From the NCBI GenBank assembly GCA_947501845.1, contig CANMXP010000001.1:1-64000 (forward strand): 64,000 bases of DNA. The letters are read 5' to 3'. This document shows, one piece after another, positions 50,670 to 55,393 of the stretch. The stretch comes from an uncultured Flavobacteriaceae bacterium (GTDB lineage Bacteria; Bacteroidota; Bacteroidia; Flavobacteriales; Flavobacteriaceae). The notes under the pieces were generated by a model. The model was not told the DNA's origin. It ran no database searches and saw only the letters and a program-made list of their open reading frames with translations. Position 1 is the stretch's first letter. Each line of letters starts with the position of its first letter. Position numbers and translations under genes: made by a program.

Positions 50670-51249
50670 AACCATGAACGGTTTCGGTTTTTCCGTAGTT
50701 TTTTATTACAATGCTTTCAAACTCTATGAGTTCTTTCCAGCGTTTATCTACATCTATATCTTTTCCATATTTACGTGCAAACCCTATGAAAGTTGTATAA
50801 TGTCCAGCTTCACTAATCATTAAATCATGGTAAAACTTAGAAAGTTCGGGGTCTTTTATTTTTTTTGACAATAGTTTGAAACGTTCACAGCTCCTGGCTT
50901 CAATCATGGCCGAAAACAAAAGCCTGTCTACCATACATTGCAGTCTGTTTCCACCTTTGTTCATGAATTTGTACAGTTCATTAACATAGCTGTCCTTACG
51001 CTCTCTACCCAGTTTATAGCCACGTTTCTTTATAATATCATGAACCATTTGGAAGTGTTCCAGCTCTTCTTGAGCCAATACTAATAAATCAGTAACTAAG
51101 TCGGTATACTCAGAATTTAAAGTAATAATAGTGATGGCATTAGTTGCTGCTTTTTGCTCACACCAAGCATGATCGGTCAGAATCTCTTCAATATTAGACT
51201 CTACAATATTTACCCAGCGCGGGTCTGTTTCTAGTTTTAAGCCAAGCAT
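50668..51249 (-). CDS. miaE: tRNA-(ms2io6A)-hydroxylase
   Basis: This 193-residue ferritin-like di-iron monooxygenase has helices with the metal-binding pattern: DHAWCEQKAA, EELEHFQMVHDIIKKRG, MIEARSCERFKLL and SEAGHYTTFIGFA. MiaE hydroxylates ms2i6A at position 37 of certain tRNAs in an O2-dependent reaction. Length is family-typical. The recG gene lies 45 bp upstream on the same strand. The stop codon sits inside the terminator of the convergent DUF2911 gene. Confidence 0.9.
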   Translation of the reverse strand: MLGLKLETDPRWVNIVESNIEEILTDHAWCEQKAATNAITIITLNSEYTDLVTDLLVLAQEELEHFQMVHDIIKKRGYKLGRERKDSYVNELYKFMNKGGNRLQCMVDRLLFSAMIEARSCERFKLLSKKIKDPELSKFYHDLMISEAGHYTTFIGFARKYGKDIDVDKRWKELIEFESIVIKNYGKTETVHG

Positions 51250-51294
51250 ATTCGTTTTTTTGTAAAAGTAAGGTTATATAATTAGCCACTAAAA

Positions 51295-53832
51295 TTACGA
51301 GATGTAATTCCAGATATTTTTGTATTTACTCAATGCTTTATAAGCATCTAAAACCACTTTATTGTTGTTGGAAGAGAGGGTAGCATCATTTTTAAGTATA
51401 TTTTTGGCGTGGTGTCTTGCCAATTTTAGAATATCGTTATCTTTTATAATATCGGCAATTTTAAGATTCAAGACTCCGCTTTGTTGGGTTCCCATAATAT
51501 CTCCAGGTCCGCGTAAACGTAAATCAACTTCTGCAATTTCAAAGCCGTCGCTGGTTCTTACCATGGTTTCTAAGCGTGTCTTGCTATCATTGCTAAGTTT
51601 GTGACTTGTCATTAAAATACAATAACTCTGTTCAGCACCACGTCCCACACGTCCACGAAGCTGATGCAGCTGTGATAAACCAAAACGCTCTGCGCTTTCA
51701 ATAATCATAACGGAGGCATTAGGTACATTAACACCAACTTCAATAACGGTGGTCGCTACCATAATTTGCGTTTCACCTTTTATAAAGCGTTGCATTTCGT
51801 AATCTTTATCTGCAGGTTTCATTTTTCCATGAACAATGGATATCTGATAATCTGGTAAAGGAAAGTCCCTAGCAATACTTTCGTAACCGTCCATTAAATC
51901 TTTATAGTCCATTTTTTCATTTTCTTGAATTAATGGATATACAATATAAATTTGTCTTCCTTTTGTTATTTCATCTCGGATAAATTTGAAAACATTCAAT
52001 CGATTTTTATCGTAACGATGTACTGTTTTTATGGACTGCCTTCCTGGGGGTAATTCATCGATAATAGAAATATCTAAATCACCATAAACCGACATGGCCA
52101 ATGTTCTTGGAATTGGCGTTGCTGTCATTACTAAAATATGTGGAGGGACAGGAGCTCCACTAATCTCCCCAGAGGGGAGACTTTTTAATTGCTCTTCGAT
52201 ATGTCTCAAAACATTATCAATATCTCCTATTATATGTATGTTGTTAAGCCGAATGACTTTAAAACCAATTTCATTTAATATTTGAGTGCGTAAGGCATCT
52301 GCTTCTTTTTGTTCAATAGTATTATGGTAACCTCCGTCAACTTCAATTATTAAATTTTTTTCCAGACAAATAAAGTCAACTATAAATTCATCAATAATAT
52401 GCTGTCTTCTAAATTTATAATTAAGTTTTTTATTTCTCAGAGATTCCCATAAAATGGATTCTGCCTGCGTACTTTTCTTTTTGTTTTCTGCTTGAAGTTT
52501 TTTTAATAAATTGTATGCTGAAGGGCGAGCGGTCATATACTTTTGACGAACGGATTTTGCGTCCTCCCTTCGGGAGGATTGAGGAGGGCCTTTCTTCCAC
52601 AATTTACTTCGTTGAGCAACTCCAAATCGATGCTGTTCATCTATAATAGCAAGTCCTAAATTTTTAAATTTCACCTTATCTTCAAGAAGAGCGTGAGTGC
52701 CAATGAGGATCTGTAAATCGCCATTTTCTAAACTTTCATGAATTTTTTTTCTTTCTGAAGTTTTAGTTGAGCCAGTTAGTGTTTTTATACTGATATTCAG
52801 TTCTTTGCATAAATCATGTAATCCATTATAATGTTGGACTGACAAAATTTCAGTCGGAGCCATTAAACAGGCTTGGAAACCGTTGTCAAGTGCTATTAAC
52901 ATTGACATGAGAGCAACTATAGTCTTGCCAGAACCTACATCACCTTGTAACAACCTGTTCATTTGTGCATTACTGCCTAAATCAGCACGAATTTCTTTTA
53001 AAACACGTTTTTGAGCACCTGTTAATTCAAAAGGTAAATGGGCTTTGAAAAAGGTGTTGAAATAATTGCCAACCTTTTCAAAAGGAAAGCCTTTTATTTT
53101 CGATTTATGGACTAGGTTTTTGATAATAAGTTGTAATTGAATATAAAATAATTCTTCAAATTTTAATCGAAATTGGGCTTTGGAAAGTAACTCTTGACTT
53201 TTCGGAAAATGCACATTAAAAAGAGCTTCACTTTTGGAAATTAATTTGAGTTCAGTAAGCAGAGGTTCAGATAGTGTTTCTGTAAACCTATTTCCTGTCT
53301 CTATAAAAAGCTGCTGCATGATTTTGCTAATCACACGATTTGTAATACCTCTGTTTGATAGTTTCTCTGTTGACGGATATATTGGTTGCATAGCAGAGCG
53401 TAAATTCCCTTTATGCTCATCAACCCCCTCAATATCTGGGTGTGGCATGTTGAACTTGCCACTAAACCAATTGGTTTTTCCAAAAATAACGTATGGCTTA
53501 TTGAGTTTCAAGCTCTCACGGATCCATTTCTGACCTCTAAACCAAACAAGCTCCATAGTGCCTGTATCATCTTGAAAAGTCGCGACCAAGCGCTTGCCGC
53601 GTTTTTGAGCAACTTCTTTAAAGCCAGTAATTTTACCAATTATTTGAACATCTGCATTACTGCGTTGCAGTTTATTGATTTTATAATACCGCGTTCTGTC
53701 TATGTATCTATTTGGAAATAGGTTGATTAAATCTTGATAAGTGTGTATGCCCAACTCTTTTCTCAATAAATCAGCACGATTAGGACCGACGCCTTTTAGG
53801 TAATCTATTGGTGTTTGAAGCTTTGCTGACAT
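51295..53832 (-). CDS. recG: ATP-dependent DNA helicase RecG with in-frame DUF559 nuclease insert
   Basis: The 845-residue protein is about 145 longer than the ~700 expected. The wedge/OB part spans 1-260. Helicase motifs are in order: Walker A GDVGSGKT (297-304), motif II DEQH (398-401), motif III TAT (570-572), then GQIYIVYPLI-type, VATTVIEVGVNVP and QLRGRVGRG, with RLRGPGDIMGTQQSG at the end. Between motifs II and III lies a foreign block (about 415-561), with VDFICLEKNLIIEVDGGYHN as its nuclease core (Asp486, Glu497, Asp499). Both RecG halves look intact and the frame is open, so one chain can be made. RecG remodels stalled forks and branched DNA. Whether the insert blocks, tolerates or adds activity is unknown. 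Confidence 0.93.
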   Translation of the reverse strand: MSAKLQTPIDYLKGVGPNRADLLRKELGIHTYQDLINLFPNRYIDRTRYYKINKLQRSNADVQIIGKITGFKEVAQKRGKRLVATFQDDTGTMELVWFRGQKWIRESLKLNKPYVIFGKTNWFSGKFNMPHPDIEGVDEHKGNLRSAMQPIYPSTEKLSNRGITNRVISKIMQQLFIETGNRFTETLSEPLLTELKLISKSEALFNVHFPKSQELLSKAQFRLKFEELFYIQLQLIIKNLVHKSKIKGFPFEKVGNYFNTFFKAHLPFELTGAQKRVLKEIRADLGSNAQMNRLLQGDVGSGKTIVALMSMLIALDNGFQACLMAPTEILSVQHYNGLHDLCKELNISIKTLTGSTKTSERKKIHESLENGDLQILIGTHALLEDKVKFKNLGLAIIDEQHRFGVAQRSKLWKKGPPQSSRREDAKSVRQKYMTARPSAYNLLKKLQAENKKKSTQAESILWESLRNKKLNYKFRRQHIIDEFIVDFICLEKNLIIEVDGGYHNTIEQKEADALRTQILNEIGFKVIRLNNIHIIGDIDNVLRHIEEQLKSLPSGEISGAPVPPHILVMTATPIPRTLAMSVYGDLDISIIDELPPGRQSIKTVHRYDKNRLNVFKFIRDEITKGRQIYIVYPLIQENEKMDYKDLMDGYESIARDFPLPDYQISIVHGKMKPADKDYEMQRFIKGETQIMVATTVIEVGVNVPNASVMIIESAERFGLSQLHQLRGRVGRGAEQSYCILMTSHKLSNDSKTRLETMVRTSDGFEIAEVDLRLRGPGDIMGTQQSGVLNLKIADIIKDNDILKLARHHAKNILKNDATLSSNNNKVVLDAYKALSKYKNIWNYIS
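52138..52590 (-). mobile_element. In-frame DUF559 nuclease cassette inside recG
   Basis: An insert of about 441 bp encodes residues ~415-561 of the RecG chain. Junction copies: GGCCCTCCTCAA (52579-52590, read on the minus strand) and GTCCCTCCACAT (52138-52149), 9 of 12 identical, encoding GPPQ and VPPH; VPPH is the native RecG sequence before ILVMTATP. GC-rich hairpins lie just inside: TCCTCCC-TTC-GGGAGGA (52562-52578) and TCTCCCC-AGA-GGGGAGA (52164-52180). The coding part has the DUF559/Vsr-like order ...FRRQHIIDEFIVDF..IIEVDGGYHN..GFKVIRL. No own stop codon is present; an internal ATG (at about 52536) could allow separate translation, but only as a fusion to the RecG C-terminal half. Mobility is inferred. 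Confidence 0.8.
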
Positions 53833-53998
53833 AACAGCGAATTTAGGATATTTGATTAAATTTTAAAAGCAAACATTAGCTATCATTAATTCTTTTCTTT
53901 AAGGTTCTTTGTGGTATTCGTTTTTTATGACTGTGTGGGCGTTTTTTTTGGTTTTAATCTTAATTTGTATATTTACATAGCCTATTAACCCCAAAGAC

Positions 53999-55393
53999 AT
54001 GAAACCTTATTTAACCCTAATCATGTTCATATGCATTTTGAATGCGTGTGAAAAATCGAATATTGAAAACTTAGACACTCCTAATCCTCCTTCTTCTAAT
54101 GATGTTATATACGAAGATAAAGCTTGTTCGTCTTGCGATTTTGTTGTTCAAGAGAATGCATGGCAAGTTGATGGAAGTGTAGAGCAACTCAGAACAGATG
54201 GTACTATGGCTAAAATTCAACCAGGAGATACCATTGGAATTACAGGAAATAGAGCGGGAATACAATTTGTAAATATTGCTGGCACTGAAGAAAAACCTGT
54301 AGTAATTACCAATTGTAATGGGGCCGCAAGAATAGGCATCACTATTAATGAATCTAAAGGACTGCATTTTATAAATTCAAAACATTTTGTGATATCTGGA
54401 GCAGGAAGTACTTCGCAAAAATATGGTATCAAGCTTATTGGATATTTTGGTATTGAAATAACCGATTACTCGACCAATTTTGAAATTTTTGCAGTAGAAG
54501 TACTTGGTGCAGGATATGTTGGTATTGCTGCGAGAACTAGTCCGCCATCATACCCAGATTGTGTTAATGCAGATAATACCAGAGCTGTATTTACTCAAAA
54601 GAATACCTTGATACATCATAATTATATTCACGATACTGGTGGTGAGGGTTTTTATATTGGAGGTTCTCATTGGCATAAACTATGGGATGAAAAATGTCCA
54701 GGTGTATATGAGCCTGAGCTTCATGGCGTACGTGTTCATCATAATATCTTAGAGAATATAGGTATGGACGGTATCCAAGTAGGAAGCGCCTCGAGAGACG
54801 TGAAAATTTATAACAACACCATCAATAATTTTGGAACACGAAGCGTAGGAGGTCATATGACGGGCTTTCAAATTAACCCTGGTACTACTGGGGAATTGTA
54901 TAATAATGTTGTGAATAGCGGTAATGGTTTTGGTATATTCGTTCTAGGAAAAGGAGATAATTTAATATACAACAATCTAATTATTAAGCCTACTTACGAC
55001 GGTATTTATACTCAAGATAGAAGCCCAGCTGCCAATGCAGGTTTTTATATTATTAACAACACAATTATTGAGCCTGGAGTAAAAGGTATTGGGTGGAATT
55101 CTTATGAGACCAGTAATAATGAAATTGTTAACAATATAATTTATAAACCAGCTCAGGAGTTTATAGGTAGTGATGGTCATAACGACAACTACTTTTATGA
55201 TAACAATCTGGAGTTAAGAGGTGACGAGGGAATTAAATTTGGTGAAAATTACCAATTACTTAATGGATCTATTGGAGCCATAGACAAGGGGAAAGATATA
55301 TTTGATAAATATAAAATAGCTTTTGATATTTTGGGTAATCAAAGACCAAGTGGGTCTAGTTATGATATTGGGGCTTATGAATACACTGATTAG
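53999..55393 (+). CDS. Right-handed parallel beta-helix lipoprotein
   Basis: The 464-residue lipoprotein has signal TLIMFICILNACEKS with Cys at about residue 17. The mature protein contains many short Asn/Ile/Gly strands typical of parallel beta-helix repeats (VKIYNNTINNFGTRSVGG, IIKPTYDGIYTQDRSPA, YIINNTIIEPGVKGIGW). It ends with the common closing element SYDIGAYEYTD. CSSCDFVVQENAWQVDGS may form a capping disulfide. Such folds include pectate lyases, alginate lyases and adhesins. I see no family-defining catalytic set, so activity is open. It is flanked by spacers of ~150 bp and not part of an operon. Confidence 0.85.
   Translation: MKPYLTLIMFICILNACEKSNIENLDTPNPPSSNDVIYEDKACSSCDFVVQENAWQVDGSVEQLRTDGTMAKIQPGDTIGITGNRAGIQFVNIAGTEEKPVVITNCNGAARIGITINESKGLHFINSKHFVISGAGSTSQKYGIKLIGYFGIEITDYSTNFEIFAVEVLGAGYVGIAARTSPPSYPDCVNADNTRAVFTQKNTLIHHNYIHDTGGEGFYIGGSHWHKLWDEKCPGVYEPELHGVRVHHNILENIGMDGIQVGSASRDVKIYNNTINNFGTRSVGGHMTGFQINPGTTGELYNNVVNSGNGFGIFVLGKGDNLIYNNLIIKPTYDGIYTQDRSPAANAGFYIINNTIIEPGVKGIGWNSYETSNNEIVNNIIYKPAQEFIGSDGHNDNYFYDNNLELRGDEGIKFGENYQLLNGSIGAIDKGKDIFDKYKIAFDILGNQRPSGSSYDIGAYEYTD

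Follow-up and report, generated by a model that had tools for sequence, protein, structure and literature searches.

A chimeric recG gene in the window

The stretch of DNA analysed here (the window; 64,000 nucleotides from an uncultured Flavobacteriaceae bacterium) contains a recG gene that forms a single unbroken open reading frame of 845 codons, encoding 845 amino acids (Table 1). Pfam recognizes the RecG wedge, DEAD and Helicase_C domains in the product, with a DUF559 domain lying between DEAD and Helicase_C. A sequence-only reading of this locus had proposed just such a continuous RecG frame with a foreign nuclease between helicase motifs II and III, and this is confirmed by the open reading frame, by Pfam, by empty-site relatives and by alignment to T. 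maritima RecG (1gm5), where residues 515 and 519 bracket the insertion point, past the motif II region and ahead of motif III. Residues 415–562 are assigned to the insert because the window can be compared with the same site in same-genus genomes: empty sites there read SKLWKKNTSPPHILVMTATP, and the window reads SKLWKK-G...V-PPHILVMTATP, the empty-site relatives used as reference for the insert limits reading SKLWKKNTSPPH. The insert starts GPPQSS, ends GAPV and takes the place of the three-residue linker NTS of relatives, a net gain of 145 codons. This alignment with relatives shows that, of the limits first read by eye (52138–52590), one was off by three codons and the other was correct.

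Table 1. Features of the recG locus, with the evidence for each
Feature	Position	Strand	Evidence
recG, chimeric ATP-dependent DNA helicase	51295..53832	-	open reading frame; matched by T. maritima RecG 1gm5 before and after the insert
in-frame insert, residues 415-562, 148 codons	52147..52590	-	comparison with empty alleles in same-genus genomes
hairpin, 5' end of insert, CCTCCCTTCGGGAGG	52563..52577		single occurrence of its pattern in the window; chance expectation 0.01
codon of E458, conserved Glu of the T-x-A-E-x-x-L-W helix	52459..52461	-	Glu in 137/139 in-frame cassettes
presumed active-site stretch D486 ... E497-x-D499 ... H503	52324..52377	-	conservation across cassettes
DUF559 nuclease domain (PF04480), residues 450-549	52186..52485	-	Pfam E 3.2e-29; structure model; fold match to 3hrl and I-Bth0305I
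hairpin, 3' end of insert, TCTCCCCAGAGGGGAGA	52164..52180		single occurrence of its pattern in the window; chance expectation 0.00

Both hairpins are GC hairpins and the nuclease lies between them; the whole window was searched with the pattern of each, allowing at most one mismatch. With a terminal inverted repeat score of 8, where the control median is 7, only the two separate hairpins are distinctive in this copy. The same insert occupies the same place in eight further genomes sampled from the family and in 12 named contigs (L108–L119), and we therefore rejected an assembly chimera. The RecG search of the window's own genome gave no second RecG among the matches listed. A model of the whole chimera, built from an alignment of 13 rows only, reached pLDDT 59 and pTM 0.29 and was discarded. 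From the open frame and the purifying selection described below, we infer that one RecG–nuclease chain of 95 kDa is made.

The nuclease domain appears to remain in that chain unspliced. Inteins have an N-terminal Cys/Ser/Thr splice block and a C-terminal HN followed by Cys/Ser/Thr. Inteins with a homing endonuclease resemble the present insert in that a nuclease is translated in frame within a conserved host protein; here, on the other hand, no splicing motif is visible by eye, as had been noted from the start, the ends vary in relatives, and the insert is apparently not excised. Nor did the region 51000–54200 give any Rfam match up to E 1 that would indicate a group I or II intron, and the frame is open through both ends. 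Some of the cassette-carrying host proteins are essential, and the burden of foreign sequence in them would be explained if the insert were removed, as a non-canonical intein, as an intron or through translational bypass. Both ends are in frame and free of stops, however, which neither introns nor bypass require, and together with the Rfam result and the variable ends this makes removal extremely improbable.

The nuclease domain

The DUF559 domain in RecG scores 101.4 bits against a gathering cut-off of 20.6 and belongs to the family PF04480. When a structure model of the insert (pLDDT 84, pTM 0.76; alignment of 71 rows) was compared with the PDB using Foldseek, only three matches had E ≤ 0.001, namely 3hrl, which is NGO0050 and is annotated as endonuclease-like, and, with two of its chains, 3r3p, the structure of the I-Bth0305I homing endonuclease catalytic domain (E 7.4e-5); Vsr (1vsr) was a weaker match to the model (E 0.099). 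A sequence profile search places the same two at the top (3hrl, E 4.6e-30; I-Bth0305I, E 1.2e-7), followed by five weaker matches from E 0.036. Judged by sequence and model, the insert nuclease is a homologue of I-Bth0305I, with an apparent EDxHD homing endonuclease fold and with E, D, E-x-D and H as presumed catalytic residues. I-Bth0305I is described in passages of PMC3943268 as phage-derived and with an extended DNA-binding region; the two are alike in sequence and catalytic fold (3r3p), but the present insert hardly extends beyond a catalytic domain and the intron search gave nothing. DUF559 is already known as a Vsr-like domain, according to the excerpt of PMC12907096 that deals with Caulobacter VsrA; VsrA and NGO0050 (3hrl) belong to the same domain family and are separate proteins, not inserts. 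The residues E, D, E, D and H are intact in 136 of the 139 in-frame cassettes collected below, the three exceptions being L117 (RecG) and L232 and L058 (both LeuRS), of which the last two have a decayed nuclease in a frame that is still open.

Cassettes in other host proteins

RecG is one of many hosts. Some related copies stand alone; others are embedded in another gene whose frame continues without a break across the nuclease. The matches listed for 60 genomes, the own genome among them, include 44 to DUF559 with at least 79 bits, 18 in open frames of 573–1282 amino acids and 26 in frames of 119–229, so that free-standing copies are the majority of the full-length ones near the window. A tandem pair of almost identical free-standing DUF559 genes (L040 and L063; genome G005, contig C24, 87824–88706) has starts 565 bp apart. 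Matches to the cassette occur in 112 of 299 genomes of the family and 187 of 395 genomes of the phylum, and the best 80 loci of a named-genome scan are all Bacteroidota by their titles. The wider searches together gave 207 matches, 179 of them unique, with 40 in frames shorter than 220 amino acids ('free') and 139 in longer frames, the latter number being an upper bound since a few 'other' frames are perhaps chance long frames. The collection is biased, its loci being the best matches to in-frame cassettes, and its in-frame part covers only frames that are open through the nuclease.

A script assigned the in-frame cassettes to LeuRS (38), RecG (25), MetH (24), IleRS (20), methylmalonyl-CoA mutase (4), restriction-like proteins (3), UvrD/RecB (3), MazG (2), PurL (1), HisD (1) and other frames (18); ValRS accounts for five rows within the LeuRS and IleRS classes, four recognized by motif and one assigned by hand. 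RecG, LeuRS, MetH, IleRS, HisD and ValRS were named by eye from translations, and the LeuRS and MetH hosts were confirmed by profile in the genomes concerned. HisD and PurL are C-terminal fusions in which the frame ends inside the element. Pfam, run on 15 frames, found DUF559 co-framed with MazG, Ham1, ABC-F, aldehyde dehydrogenase plus MaoC, DegT, UDP-GlcNAc epimerase, MetRS, GH31, M23, methylmalonyl-CoA mutase (two frames), UvrD and UvrA; the PurL frame combines DUF559 with a glutamine amidotransferase domain, and one frame (L177) gave no host domain by Pfam. Taking all searches together, the cassette shares a frame with members of some 15 or more protein families, the majority of which are unrelated to one another. 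A LeuRS search of 17 genomes, chosen mostly as cassette carriers, gave one locus each over the cut-off among the matches listed, and in 11 of the 17 that locus is the chimera (1098–1251 amino acids). A fusion specific to RecG was rejected as a sufficient explanation, as most collected cassettes sit in other hosts.

Several further observations concern these hosts. A second LeuRS cassette site lies directly ahead of a TMPGWAGSS-type motif (L178, L212, L213, L223), and two LeuRS genes (L047, L064) contain an extra short in-frame stretch, NSSPSGRLGGA or NSSPLGRLGGA, that resembles a gene-less element end. Other cassettes lie in long frames that resemble, by eye, type I restriction helicase subunits (L226, L231) or restriction-methylase-like proteins (L227, L228, L234).

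Spread by phage or plasmid was considered and rejected, matches in such records being few and of low identity. With a 123-amino-acid query, 39 of 72,556 plasmid records and 2 of 50,697 phage records gave a match, always below 60% identity, and among the 80 relatives retained out of 85 in viral contigs one (L259) is 51% identical over most of the domain, one short segment is 52% identical and the other 78 are lower.

Anatomy of the element

A MetH gene (L094) holds two cassettes that are 86% identical in protein and are mutual nearest relatives; their DNA homology starts at AGCCCCCC and stops at GGGGGGCT. Four copies with similar ends, two of them free-standing, occur in genome G486, one end reading CCTCACCCCCCGGCCCCCTCTCC-loop-GGAGAGGGG and being inverted at the far side. 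A hairpin search of G486 gave 21 matches, against none for the reversed-pattern control, and revealed six inverted hairpin pairs without a nuclease, with starts 57–109 bp apart. Inspection by eye shows in-frame reading of a single hairpin in PurL (L240) and of one pair (L246); at the other hairpins of this GC-rich genome, long open frames are common and prove nothing. Across the collection, from which three cassettes were excluded for short flanks, a terminal inverted repeat score of at least 12 is reached by 55 of the 137 in-frame cassettes and by 20 of the 39 free ones, compared with 0/134 and 1/37 in the respective control flanks and 5/137 and 1/39 for the best of 20 shuffles. The hairpin score within a single flank is only moderately raised (48/137 in-frame cassettes versus 27/134 controls). 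The flavobacterial right-end hairpin pattern occurs in 10 of 60 genomes, eight of them being the own genome and its genus, too few to address co-occurrence with DUF559. The own genome also holds a decayed free-standing DUF559 gene between repeated palindromes (L073:1000–1700, contig C4 near 30010), with TCTCCTCTT...AAGAGGAGA on both sides and CCTCCCT-type palindromes likewise on both. Many copies could have their nuclease translated separately, because an in-frame ATG precedes the conserved helix in 91 of 123 in-frame cassettes (32 have none).

Hairpin ends of this kind might be moved in trans by another enzyme, for example a RAYT/Y1 transposase, with DUF559 as a passenger or accessory. GTAG REP elements have been hypothesized to be RAYT-moved (PMC3733652, abstract and passages), and the nuclease-less pairs of G486 fit such a scheme; the argument against it, a weak one, is that DUF559 is the sole gene between the ends in the copies read and keeps its active-site residues. 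On balance we regard mobilization in trans as unlikely.

Insertion sites and relatedness between copies

Two sites in MetH, A and B, are both occupied in three genes (L094, L149 and L165), and the two cassettes of L149 have different nearest relatives, which indicates that the same MetH loops have been used more than once; judged by nearest neighbours, each site has received at least two cassette lineages. The junctions vary, the host loop after PFI being absent in L165 and L198 and present in others, and site B elsewhere contains a single hairpin (L095). Because the junctions are non-identical and loop B also holds a hairpin or another repeat, these data point to tolerant linkers filtered by selection rather than to one exact target sequence. 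The other repeat is a different short in-frame one, translated RHAKLDSASQ or CNAELDSAS (L105, L176).

For 99 of 137 in-frame cassettes the nearest relative occupies the same host site. Among pairs whose genes clearly differ, the most similar (ValRS L125 and IleRS L068) is only 68% identical; jumps between genes therefore look old, and no recent one was seen among the 137. No target-site duplication is evident by eye. Reuse of loops, this sharing of host sites and the homing endonuclease fold are what one would expect of strict homing, in which the nuclease cuts one exact site in an empty allele and the cassette is copied there, the hairpins having no role. Such a scheme is at odds with junctions that differ within one loop, with the missing loop residues, with the many different host genes and with the similar hairpin ends found in different hosts, and we consider it very unlikely.

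History at the RecG site

The search for the RecG site in relatives covered 60 genomes, own included. Eleven same-genus genomes comprise three with the full insert, five with a short in-frame insert and three with an empty site; one short form (L010) has both element ends and no nuclease, and three others (L011–L013) retain the 5' end. In a wider set of 60 recG frames, of which 49 distinct rows were retained, 24 are full, 6 short and 19 empty, one short row (L024) having no recognizable element end. Carriers among the named contigs include Tenacibaculum, Polaribacter, Flavobacterium, Maribacter, Aequorivita, Winogradskyella, Algibacter and Tamlana. The full state is patchy on the RecG tree, with 13 changes versus a shuffled mean of 16.7 (23 of 500 shuffles as low). 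All 25 RecG cassettes form a single clade in a fast tree of 173 of the 179 cassettes, six with scores under 100 having been excluded. For the 24 full rows, the insert and host trees have 9 of 21 splits in common, with 12 of each unshared, a comparison that rests on a short insert and few well-supported branches; insert and host distances correlate (Mantel r 0.68; 0 of 2000 permutations equally high). Exact empty sites lie close to full ones on the RecG tree, where support is 82–86, and deletion alone does not explain them; either re-invasion or an exchange with empty alleles by recombination would suffice. A co-conversion scan round the site in 12 same-genus alleles, which are 10–19% divergent, showed no local dip in divergence. 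In four same-genus alleles, dN/dS is 0.05–0.13 for the insert and 0.03–0.04 for the host part (rough values, dS being 0.8–2.2), which suggests that the insert is under purifying selection. The simplest reading of these patterns is one old insertion, inherited mostly vertically, with losses. The colonization of RecG proposed by the sequence-only reading is thus supported as regards a foreign cassette from an apparently mobile family and not as regards a fresh event, given the mostly vertical history and the shortened and empty sites.

Selection on the insert and its mostly vertical history would also be expected of a domesticated nuclease that is retained because it benefits the host or RecG itself, perhaps through cleavage of remodelled forks. 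The core D, E-x-D and H are retained in 24 of 24 full RecG copies, one RecG row (L117) lacking the first Glu, and the terminal inverted repeats have decayed (score below 12) in 23 of 25, the window's copy included. Yet within one genus three sites are empty and five hold a short insert, and the same residues are kept in cassettes of metabolic enzymes unrelated to forks, such as LeuRS, MetH, methylmalonyl-CoA mutase and GH31; moreover, domestication in RecG would leave the other hosts unexplained. Domestication seems to us rather unlikely.

A probable mobile element resident in proteins

The insert is probably an old copy of an apparently mobile Bacteroidota element, consisting of a small DUF559 endonuclease gene (seemingly of the Vsr/I-Bth0305I-like type) with inverted hairpin ends and moving by the mechanism set out below. 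It is best read as a palindromic element of REP/RPE-like character, equipped with a homing-type nuclease and living as a translated part of proteins. Several lines of evidence support this account: the many hosts, the genomes in which the sole LeuRS is a chimera, the twin copies in MetH, the inverted repeats, the gene-less pairs, the short form L010, the catalytic residues, the dN/dS values and the match to I-Bth0305I. The mobile nuclease unit envisaged in the sequence-only reading is supported by the in-frame cassettes in many genes, the MetH twins and the homing endonuclease homology; a vertical phylogeny combined with the absence of similar cassettes elsewhere, which would have spoken against it, is not what was found. 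Other points weigh against mobility: the RecG insert tree partly follows the host tree and the RecG terminal repeats mostly score below 12, as a domesticated domain would; the jumps look old, single-flank hairpins are only moderately enriched, neither a target-site duplication nor a divergence dip is evident, and most full-length copies near the window are free-standing.

In the mechanism that we propose for the mobile element, first of all, insertions that keep the frame in tolerant linkers would survive, the host protein still functioning with the domain in place. Second, the nuclease would be translated as an extra domain of the host and could cut DNA. Third, cutting may promote copying of the element through break repair at the hairpin ends or in empty alleles; by analogy, the nuclease would be what drives mobility. 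The long-lived RecG copy would then reflect repeated gain, decay and loss, and not a benefit specific to RecG. Whether this amounts to a class of mobile elements whose habitat is the protein, as a translated and unspliced domain, with a hairpin-ended homing-type nuclease in frame in conserved, often essential Bacteroidota genes and propagation through host expression, is in our view an even call.

Comparison with known elements

Intragenic in-frame REPs and Rickettsia palindromic elements (RPE) are already known, and passages of PMC3733652 describe palindromic elements in frame in protein genes, including those for UvrA, RecB-type proteins and tRNA synthetases. The present element resembles them in being palindromic, here with hairpins at both ends, and in frame within protein genes, and shortened in-frame forms and single hairpins occur here too. 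In those passages, on the other hand, they encode some 20 to 82 amino acids and no gene is mentioned, whereas the element here is 148 codons long with an apparently intact nuclease and falls outside a short, gene-less definition. Of the two analogies first drawn for the insert, that to the Rickettsia elements thus fits better than that to inteins. The REPtron, a RAYT transposase gene with its REPs (as outlined in the same excerpt of PMC3733652), likewise has one gene between inverted hairpin repeats, and gene-less hairpin pairs are present in at least one genome here; the enclosed gene, however, is a DUF559 nuclease and not a Y1 transposase, which sets the element apart from REPtrons.

Literature searches confined to open-access papers showed no report of DUF559 cassettes inside other proteins. 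If our reading is true, the element would be the autonomous partner so far missing for in-frame palindromic elements such as RPE and the gene-less hairpin pairs. The question becomes testable with a version that bears a nuclease and hairpin ends and that also has shortened forms and gene-less pairs. It would furthermore show that certain loops of synthetases and repair enzymes can accommodate an entire foreign nuclease domain, and it warns that DUF559 inside such proteins is an insertion and not a purposeful fusion.

A final observation concerns the CGTC-tagged REPs, which in PMC3733652 have a CGTC tag beside a stem of 8–9 bp. The G486 hairpins (L238–L258) differ from these in their stems of about 14 bp, and CGTC lies within 8 nt of 7 of the 21 (background 2.1%), a possible link to the tagged REPs in spite of the longer stems.
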